A DNA stretch of 64,000 nucleotides from Nitrosopumilus sp. (lineage in GTDB: Archaea; Thermoproteota; Nitrososphaeria; Nitrososphaerales; Nitrosopumilaceae): NCBI RefSeq assembly GCF_025698945.1, contig NZ_JAILWM010000001.1:496001-560000 (forward strand), written 5' to 3'. The notes beneath the pieces were generated by a model. That model was not told the DNA's origin, searched no databases, and saw only the letters and a program-made list of their open reading frames with translations. The position numbers and the translations under genes were made by a program. How positions within the stretch are numbered: the stretch's first letter is position 1; every line of letters begins with the position of its first letter. Shown piece after piece: positions 19,066-21,285 of this stretch.

Positions 19066-19602
19066 TCATTTTCTCAATTTATCAAAAGTTAAATCAAATT
19101 CAAATTGTTTTTCAATATTTTTCCCATAATCGGTTTGGAGATCATATTCATTACTTTGTGATTGAAATTCAGATTCCAATTTTTTAACCTCTGAACCAAT
19201 CATGTTGCCAGAGTCTTCCTTTGCAAATTGTTTTCGTTGTTCTTCATTTGAACCTCTTGTAGGAAATTTTTTTCCATAAAAGATTTCACATAGTTTCGAA
19301 ATTTTTTCCTGTTTGATCAATTCAGCCAAATCAAAACGACCTTGTTCATGATTTAATAATTTGTCTTGTTCAATTGAATTTCTTACCCAAGATAATAAAG
19401 GATGGAATTCAACAAAAAGTTGTATATTTTCAATAAAAAACATTATTGTATCACCAATTTTTTCAGAATTTACAACCCAAGTATATCTATATTTTATGAC
19501 ACTGTGAGAATCTTCAAAAACAGCAGGATTAGACTCGGCTTTAAAATCTGACCAGTTTAATTTTCTATCTTTTGACCAAACAATAATTTCGTGTTCTCCC
19601 AT
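19066..19602 (-). CDS. DUF922-like protein with altered HExxH motif
   Basis: 178 aa. W-x-DF near the N-terminus (LNWSDFKAES) and LLNHEQGRFDLAELI near residue 92 match the pattern of DUF922, a predicted zinc-protease family whose motif is HEQGHFDL. Here the second zinc histidine is replaced by Arg (HEQGR), so activity is doubtful. There is no signal peptide. It may be an inactive or cytoplasmic derivative. Confidence 0.5.
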   Translation of the reverse strand: MGEHEIIVWSKDRKLNWSDFKAESNPAVFEDSHSVIKYRYTWVVNSEKIGDTIMFFIENIQLFVEFHPLLSWVRNSIEQDKLLNHEQGRFDLAELIKQEKISKLCEIFYGKKFPTRGSNEEQRKQFAKEDSGNMIGSEVKKLESEFQSQSNEYDLQTDYGKNIEKQFEFDLTFDKLRK

Positions 19603-19670: not shown

Positions 19671-19874
19671 TCATTCTCTCTTACCATCTCGACCACTAAA
19701 ACTGCCAAAAGTTTGAGGAACATCAAATCCCAACCAAGAATGAATCTTAGATTCTAATGATTTATGATACTTTTCATGCTCAATTAATTCCTTATCCCCC
19801 CATTTACCATCATGTAGAAACGAGCATTTTTCCAAGTGGTTGTTTATTTGAGCACCTTTACAAATTATAATCAT
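19671..19874 (-). CDS. Hypothetical small protein with HExxH (67 aa)
   Basis: 67 aa containing LIEHEKYHKSLE, which fits HExxH by pattern, and a CxxxxxH pair earlier. It is short for a protease, so the motif may be chance. It sits 68 bp upstream of the DUF922-like gene on the same strand and may share its transcript. Confidence 0.4.
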   Translation of the reverse strand: MIIICKGAQINNHLEKCSFLHDGKWGDKELIEHEKYHKSLESKIHSWLGFDVPQTFGSFSGRDGKRE

Positions 19875-19924
19875 ATTTCTAAAGAATGAATGAAATTGAA
19901 AAATTTTGCGTTAAATAACAATAT

Positions 19925-20000
19925 GTTTGACGGCAGTTGAATTCTAGGGTATGGTCGATTAAGGCAAACGTATGAATGCCGTCAAACGATGACTCGACTA
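19925..20000. ncRNA. Structured element B, H-type pseudoknot candidate
   Basis: Stem 1 pairs GTTTGACGGCA (19925-19935) perfectly with TGCCGTCAAAC (19977-19987). Stem 2 pairs TGGTCGA (19952-19958), inside the stem 1 loop, with TCGACTA (19994-20000) just beyond stem 1; one of the seven pairs is G-U. The stems cross, giving an H-type pseudoknot with a 6-nt junction. It lies in the 430-bp gene-poor stretch 19875-20304. Strand and promoter are not settled. Confidence 0.5.
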
Positions 20001-20184
20001 TTATTTCTCACAGAAGACTAAAAGATATTGTATGTACATTTTGAACATAAATTCAGAAAATAATTTTTGTTTAGGCTCAAATTACAATAAAAACATAATT
20101 TGGATCACTTTTTCAACGCTTTTTGATCAAATTACAAAACATGTTTTATTTTAAGAATTTTTGAATATATCAATTATTAATAAA

Positions 20185-20273
20185 TTGGAAGCAAGGTGTT
20201 TGCTGGTTTGACATCTAACCGTAACTCCCAAAGAGTCGATGCAAAAAGGATGTCAAACTTGCTTGCTCTCCAA
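20185..20273. ncRNA. Structured element C, nested helices plus crossing stem
   Basis: The outer helix pairs TTGGAAGCAAG (20185-20195) with CTTGCTCTCCAA (20262-20273), 11 pairs with one bulged C. The inner helix pairs GTTTGACATC (20206-20215) perfectly with GATGTCAAAC (20249-20258). TTTGC (20199-20203) can also pair with GCAAA (20241-20245) in the inner loop, crossing the inner helix. The inner arms share GTTTGAC/GTCAAAC with element B, and GTCGAT plus GCAAA recur in both loops. Confidence 0.5.
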
Positions 20274-20304
20274 ACTATTAATTTCAGTTAATTTTACAAA
20301 TAAC

Positions 20305-20382
20305 ATGAATAAACAATTCTATATTTGGATGGGAGTTTCTATTGGAGCGCTTATAGTCGGATTTACTATTTTGTTTAGCTAA
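20305..20382 (+). CDS. Single-helix membrane micro-peptide (25 aa)
   Basis: 25 aa: a short polar start then MGVSIGALIVGFTILF, a plausible transmembrane helix. TATTAATT at 20276-20283 is centred 25.5 nt before the ATG, the leaderless spacing seen elsewhere in the window. It begins 31 nt after element C and ends directly at the stop of the convergent metallopeptidase gene. So short a frame can occur by chance. Confidence 0.35.
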   Translation: MNKQFYIWMGVSIGALIVGFTILFS

Positions 20383-21285
20383 TTATTGTGTAATTTCAAA
20401 ATTTGGATTACATCCTAACTGGAAAACTATTTTATTTAGTTGGTCAATTAATTTATTTTGTTTATCGATTAGTAAATTTACATTTTTACCTTGAAAATTT
20501 AATTTATCTATAATTTGTTGAGCTTTTTGATAATCTTGATCAGAGAGAGTTTTATCATCATAGTATTGGTATTGTTTGTAGTATTCATCATATTGGTTTT
20601 GCTCATGTGAAATTTTACTTTGAATAGATTGTATTTCAGCACTGATTTCTCGTTCCTGTTGTAATAATACATCTTGGCCTATGTATAATTCTTCAAATCT
20701 TTTAGGAACAACAAATCCTTTTGAATCAAAAGATATTTCAGGAGATTCAGTAGAATACATCAAATGACCTTCTTCACTTGTATGACTCAATCCCAAAGCA
20801 TGACCTATTTCATGCATCAAAATATTGGCAACCATGTTTTCATCATTTTGAATAAATTCTCCAGAACAATCCTTTGCACCTACTGAAATATCCAAAATGC
20901 AATGAGTAAAAATTCCAAACAAAACAGTACTACATGTTGCAAGTCCTGTGTGAGTAGGAGATGCATATTCTTGCCATCTAATTTCAATATTCGAATTCTT
21001 GGATTGGACAAACTGGAGTTTAGGATTTTTTTGCTCCCAAGTCTCAATTGCTTTTTTAAGTGCAGAAACAGGTATTTGTTTATCAGGTATTTGTGGAACA
21101 TCCTCAAAAGAATAATAGATAGTTTGCTTCTCATTTGAGGTAATTGCATTTGAGATTTGTTGAATATTCTCAACAGATAGAGCTAGTGTTGGAGATTTTT
21201 GAAATGTGTTAAATGGTAGCATTTCAGAATACCACATATATCCAAACACGACCACTGCAAAAACTACTATAACTGTGGCCTTCAA
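20383..21285 (-). CDS. Matrixin-like zinc metallopeptidase, membrane anchored
   Basis: 300 aa. An N-terminal hydrophobic helix (residues 4-18) anchors or exports it. The catalytic zinc motif HEIGHALGLSH is at 158-168 and the Met-turn LMYS at 175-178, so it is an active-looking metzincin of the matrixin/M10 type. Cysteines near 118, 129 and 140 may form disulfides. The last ~80 residues are a Gln/Tyr-rich coiled coil. It probably degrades or processes surface proteins. Confidence 0.8.
   Translation of the reverse strand: MKATVIVVFAVVVFGYMWYSEMLPFNTFQKSPTLALSVENIQQISNAITSNEKQTIYYSFEDVPQIPDKQIPVSALKKAIETWEQKNPKLQFVQSKNSNIEIRWQEYASPTHTGLATCSTVLFGIFTHCILDISVGAKDCSGEFIQNDENMVANILMHEIGHALGLSHTSEEGHLMYSTESPEISFDSKGFVVPKRFEELYIGQDVLLQQEREISAEIQSIQSKISHEQNQYDEYYKQYQYYDDKTLSDQDYQKAQQIIDKLNFQGKNVNLLIDKQNKLIDQLNKIVFQLGCNPNFEITQ

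Follow-up and report, generated by a model that had tools for sequence, protein, structure and literature searches.

Archaeal intergenic small RNAs are, as a kind, short, structured, encoded in a single copy between genes and preceded by a promoter-like box. The two elements described here, el1 and el2, agree with this description in all respects. They were recognised in a stretch of 64,000 nucleotides of a Nitrosopumilus genome that was analysed as a whole (the window). Unlike the known archaeal sRNAs, however, they are without a match in Rfam and form a conserved divergent pair that, within the range of the searches, was restricted to four genera. At the gathering threshold, none of the 4227 families of Rfam 15 matched the window (0 matches), and when E-values up to 10 were allowed, only chance-level matches were obtained for positions 19850-20400. 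The boxes of archaeal box C/D sRNAs (RUGAUGA and CUGA) were, by inspection, found neither in el1 (minus strand) nor in el2 of this window. Among open papers no known Nitrosopumilus sRNA was found at this locus, and the searchable literature yielded little on RNA regulation in ammonia-oxidizing archaea.

A second comparison is offered by Tan1 (PMC5069720), an ncRNA that is abundant in marine group II Euryarchaeota. Like Tan1, el1 and el2 would represent previously unannotated ncRNAs of marine archaea, here predicted from sequence, although they come from a different phylum and are likened to Tan1 by description, not by sequence. With H-type pseudoknot riboswitches and leaders, el1 shares a hairpin with a possible crossing helix from loop to flank; it differs from them in that the crossing helix comprises only 3-4 bp and is formed with the 5' flank on the minus strand, and in that the gene behind el1 varies and is preceded by a promoter box of its own. 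Type I toxin-antitoxin pairs, which combine a small membrane peptide with a regulatory RNA, resemble el2 insofar as it often adjoins a 25-aa membrane ORF, but el2 persists without this ORF. A toxin-antitoxin pairing of el2 with the ORF was rejected, since el2 binds the ORF of its own genome no better than that of another genome (permutation p = 0.77).

We consider it likely that el1 (minus strand, from ~19995 to ~19899) and el2 (plus strand, ~20178-20285) constitute a divergent pair of stand-alone, trans-acting ncRNA genes. Being conserved and having an assigned strand, position and synteny, both RNA families are directly testable in cultured strains.

Conserved structure of the two elements

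An earlier note had drawn el1 as an H-type pseudoknot, by implication on the plus strand. Both of its helices can indeed be read in the window: the 11-bp perfect inverted repeat consists of GTTTGACGGCA (19925-19935) and TGCCGTCAAAC (19977-19987), with 11/11 pairs, and the 7-bp second helix of TGGTCGA (19952-19958) and TCGACTA (19994-20000), with one G-T pair. By eye, two overlapping helices of this length had seemed unlikely in random AT-rich DNA; the 11-bp repeat alone was not shown to exceed chance. Perfect 11-bp repeats with five or more G/C and a spacer of at most 60 nt average 0.28 per dinucleotide-shuffled window versus 1 observed, and perfect 11-bp inverted repeats of any composition occur at a mean of 4.7 per dinucleotide-shuffled window. 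Folding of the el1 region yields z-scores of -0.87 (plus strand) and -0.93 (minus strand); about one fifth of the shuffles fold as well. We take the hairpin as real because it is conserved in relatives and not because the repeat is improbable alone.

When relatives are aligned, the long helix of the drawing is kept with 10 of its 11 pairs (the 11th holds in 8/30), whereas the second helix as drawn is not: 55-59% of its cells pair in relatives and all seven pairs are present only in the window's own genome (1/54), for which reason the H-type pseudoknot in its original form was rejected. The more general proposal of a structured RNA that is not explained by a protein gene is supported. Indels of 1-4 nt in el1 and el2 break the reading frames, and the two properties by which we recognise a structured ncRNA gene, covariation and the lack of a coding frame, were both found, with the covariation of el1 being modest. 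The el1 hairpin probably belongs to a genuine small-RNA gene conserved in marine ammonia-oxidizing archaea, with the opposite strand and a different fold from those originally drawn.

The el1 gene, placed by its homologues (47/200 family genomes) and the strand evidence given below, would measure ~97 nt (19899-19995, minus strand), with a predicted 5' end near 19995 (GAGUCAU) and a predicted 3' end near the T-run at 19903-19899. A T-run of at least four within 48 nt is present in 53/54 sequences, and the 3' end may fall on a run of this kind, for example the one in the box of the next gene. On the minus strand, helix P1 is formed by GUUUGACGGC (5' arm, 19978-19987) and GCCGUCAAAC (3' arm, 19925-19934); 98.5% of its cells are paired and double changes occur in 4/10 pairs. 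P1 varies little, with 6 double-change cells. The loop (19935-19977, minus strand; consensus CCUACGUUUGCCUUAACCGACCAUNCCCUAGAAUUC) is strongly conserved between genera and carries indels of 1-4 nt. A crossing contact may exist between this loop and the 5' leader, on other bases than those drawn: GUC in the leader (19991-19993, minus strand) faces GAC in the loop (19956-19954) as a weak candidate for a short crossing helix. The contact is 96.1% paired on the minus strand, with a single compensatory case (GATC/GGTC in L026), and is absent in L221. Taken together, P1 and the short contact are 97.9% paired on the minus strand, and none of 500 shuffles matched them on every measure.

Part of el2 is a related stem, GTTTGACATC...GATGTCAAAC, at a distance of 280 bp from el1; GTTTGAC-GTCAAAC pairs of this spacing occur only twice in the genome, once in each element. 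Based on its fold, homologues and covariation, the el2 gene is placed at 20178-20285 (plus strand), with predicted ends and a structured part at 20187-20271. In its outer helix the 5' arm GGAAGCAAG (20187-20195, plus strand; 99.3% paired) joins the 3' arm CTTGCTCTCC (20262-20271, plus strand), the pairing of which is seen in the wider set, and changes take the form GCAAG/CUUGC to ACAGG/CCUGU. The inner helix connects GTTTGACATC (20206-20215, plus strand) with 20249-20258 and has double changes in 10/10 pairs. Within it lies the near-invariant core GTAACTCCCAAAGAGTCGAT (20221-20240, plus strand), a CUC/GAG hairpin with the loop CCAAA that changes to CCC/GGG and UUC/GAA. Among 73 sequences, 96% of the helix cells are paired, both-side changes occur in 17/22 pairs and double-change cells number 142 versus 34.5 in shuffles; the covariation was repeated in a wider set with three further genera. 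The fold of el2 has z = -3.82, and its consensus fold reaches -22.4 kcal/mol versus -4.7 for the reverse complement. On these comparisons el2 is a structured RNA on the plus strand; as a structured-RNA gene it is better supported than el1, its covariation being overwhelming. Variants of the core (GTATCACATGAAGGGATGGATAC) at two loci (L245 and L251) would lengthen the capping helix by GUA/UAC, possibly a further case of covariation.

The intervening region and the neighbouring genes

el1 and el2 are divergent and ~190 nt apart, with a promoter-like box for each in between, from which each RNA would be transcribed. The box of el1 is TCTTTTAGTCT on the minus strand (20015-20025; consensus TTTCTTTTARTCT), and the promoter candidate of el2 consists of the conserved A/T boxes TTTTATTTTAAGAATTTTTGAA (20144-20165, plus strand). 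A promoter motif sought in 43 genes of the window gave no clear signal. The region upstream of el1 also contains an imperfect dyad, TATGTACATTTTGAACATA (20031-20049, on neither strand in particular), which was not seen in genomes without el1. Its outer pairs are not maintained, and it was rejected as an RNA hairpin since the upper pairs alone hold. A conserved block further on, GGATCACTTTTTCAACGCTTTTTGATCAA (20102-20130, likewise without strand), comprises the dyad GATCA/TGATC (GGATCA...TGATCA) and stays with el2, also in genomes without el1. This near-invariant dyad block upstream of el2 (GGATCAYTTTTTCAACCCWTTTTGATCAA) is a candidate regulator site; a regulon was discarded, the site being single in the genome.

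Behind el1, on the minus strand, lie c8, a conserved orphan ORF of 67 aa (window 19671-19874) that in relatives has an A/T box of the leaderless type ~30-31 nt before its start and is lost in some clades, where el1 is then found directly before c1, and c1 itself (window 19066-19602), which encodes a protein of 178 aa without a Pfam or NCBIfam match. Its synteny with el1/el2 extends over four genera; four more genera within the family have c1 but neither element. On the other side, el2 is followed on the plus strand, in the majority of Nitrosopumilus genomes, by a conserved 25-aa ORF (window 20305-20382) for a miniprotein with a single membrane span (consensus-like MNxKFYVxMGISxxALxVGFxLLFG), for which no Pfam or NCBIfam match was obtained. 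It adjoins a gene for an M10/matrixin-like metalloprotease (window 20383-21285, minus strand) that is present in part of the relatives only.

With this arrangement, el1 and el2 could be cis-regulatory leaders of the riboswitch or attenuator type, el1 of c8 or c1 and el2 of the 25-aa ORF, a reading that we consider rather unlikely. It would accommodate the same-strand ORF that follows P1 after ~45-110 nt in nearly all genomes and is nearly always c8 or c1, as well as the 25-aa ORF, which follows el2 in some two thirds to three quarters of the genomes. However, each RNA is separated from the downstream start codon by a promoter-like box whose spacing is fixed to that codon, which fits leaderless mRNAs that start behind the structured RNA. 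The distance from A/T box to start codon is mostly 28-31 nt (mean 28.8, sd 0.7 for c1; mean 30.2, sd 2.0 for c8), whereas the same boxes lie at variable distance from el1 (sd 4.7 for c1 and 21 for c8). With the box fixed to the start codon, c8 and c1 would seem to be expressed from promoters of their own, as leaderless mRNAs that begin after el1, and this anchoring speaks against el1 as their leader. In the case of the 25-aa ORF a TATTAAT-type box is located ~22-24 nt before the ATG. Moreover, the same-strand gene behind el1 changes, being c8, c1 where c8 is missing, or a zinc-ribbon-like gene (L016), and el2 is kept without the 25-aa ORF in ~20 genomes, including L220 and L221 of genus g18. 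The occurrence of both elements is, in other words, independent of the downstream gene. That many genomes lack the 25-aa ORF, and that this ORF is preceded by a separate box, also speaks against el2 as its 5' UTR. Because the neighbours have boxes of their own and el2 is kept without the ORF, el1 and el2 look like stand-alone divergent sRNA genes, which we regard as more likely than leaders.

Strand preference of el1

On the plus strand, the 10 pairs of P1 are kept (94-96% paired), and the departures comprise 17 A-C cells versus 4 G-U cells. The pattern is opposite in el2 on its plus strand, where 112 G-U cells stand against 18 A-C cells. Collapsed by clade, the asymmetry in el1 shrinks to ~10 versus 6 events. 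The consensus fold of el1, calculated over identical columns, reaches -14.08 kcal/mol on the minus versus -1.31 on the plus strand; single-sequence fold energies and z-scores do not separate the two strands. From the box TTTCTTTTARTCT to the conserved start of el1 (GAGTCAT) the distance is near-fixed, 21-23 nt in 43/48 sequences, and the mean column identity is 0.69 for the box and 0.41 for the spacer between box and start. This placement would look like that expected of a promoter for a minus-strand el1 RNA. The substitutions (G-U versus A-C), the energy of the consensus fold and the spacing of the box thus favour the minus strand; el1 is probably read from it, and the plus strand implied by the original drawing is probably wrong.

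The plus strand could be retained if el1 were an H-type pseudoknot with its second helix shifted to 19953-19957/19990-19994 (GGUCG/UGACU), and this shifted helix is in fact 90.6-93% paired on the plus strand. Its agreement, however, stems from conserved sequence, almost without compensation, and the substitutions in P1 and the three central contact pairs are mostly A-C on the plus and G-U on the minus strand. The poor plus-strand consensus fold of el1 and the fixed-spacing box, placed for minus-strand transcription, also speak against it. The register-shifted helix, conserved as it is, was set aside because the wobble pattern favours the minus strand, and we judge such a plus-strand RNA quite improbable. 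That the conserved hairpin acts as untranscribed DNA, i.e., as a protein-binding dyad or recombination site, would agree with its long identical arms and the limited variation of P1, but is highly improbable in view of the G-U tolerance mainly on one strand, the asymmetry of the conserved ~40-nt loop and the single-copy, syntenic occurrence of el1 and el2, the core of the latter not being found in viral contigs.

Possible function and distribution

As a pair of stand-alone genes, el1 and el2 would yield two folded RNAs. In the el1 RNA a 10-bp hairpin would present a strongly conserved loop of ~40 nt, possibly tied to the 5' leader by a crossing helix of 3-4 bp; in the el2 RNA two helices would stack, with a near-invariant hairpin as their cap. 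A partner mRNA or protein may bind, in trans, to the el1 loop or the el2 core. We favour trans action because the best-conserved parts, the el1 loop and the capping hairpin of el2, are those expected to face a partner. A search of the genome by DNA similarity revealed neither paralogues nor long antisense targets of the two elements. That el1 and el2 form one regulatory unit, i.e., a co-inherited divergent sRNA pair with a shared control region and trans regulation of gene expression in ammonia-oxidizing archaea that represents families specific to the Nitrosopumilaceae, is a tentative proposal to which we give limited credence.

Using DNA similarity, el1 was detected in 32/95 and el2 in 76/95 Nitrosopumilus genomes. 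Of 200 genomes of the family, covariance models detected 47 with el1 and 68 with el2, in 4/22 genera, and no further genus with either element was found among 300 genomes of the class. el1 is conserved in ~50 genomes from four genera of the Nitrosopumilaceae, in all of which the gene order around the locus is mostly preserved, and both elements are single-copy and syntenic. Diverged copies of el1 or el2 beside c1 in the four other genera were not found, even with filters off. el1 is practically never found without el2: the lists for the family contain a single such genome (G208, 77% complete).

A viral origin was rejected, the el2 core being without a match in viral contigs. Scanning GTDB genomes for exact copies of this core produced 45 loci, 44 of which are in Nitrosopumilus or other thaumarchaeal/archaeal records; one exact match (L198) lies in a Competibacteraceae bin and may reflect chance or mis-binning. 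A Nitrosopumilus genome of 1,775,052 bp has both elements, and another (G006, locus L036; 1,645,259 bp) has kept the dyad block and el2 (at 782966-783072), with no el1 detected; a genome with both elements and G006 provide a natural comparison.
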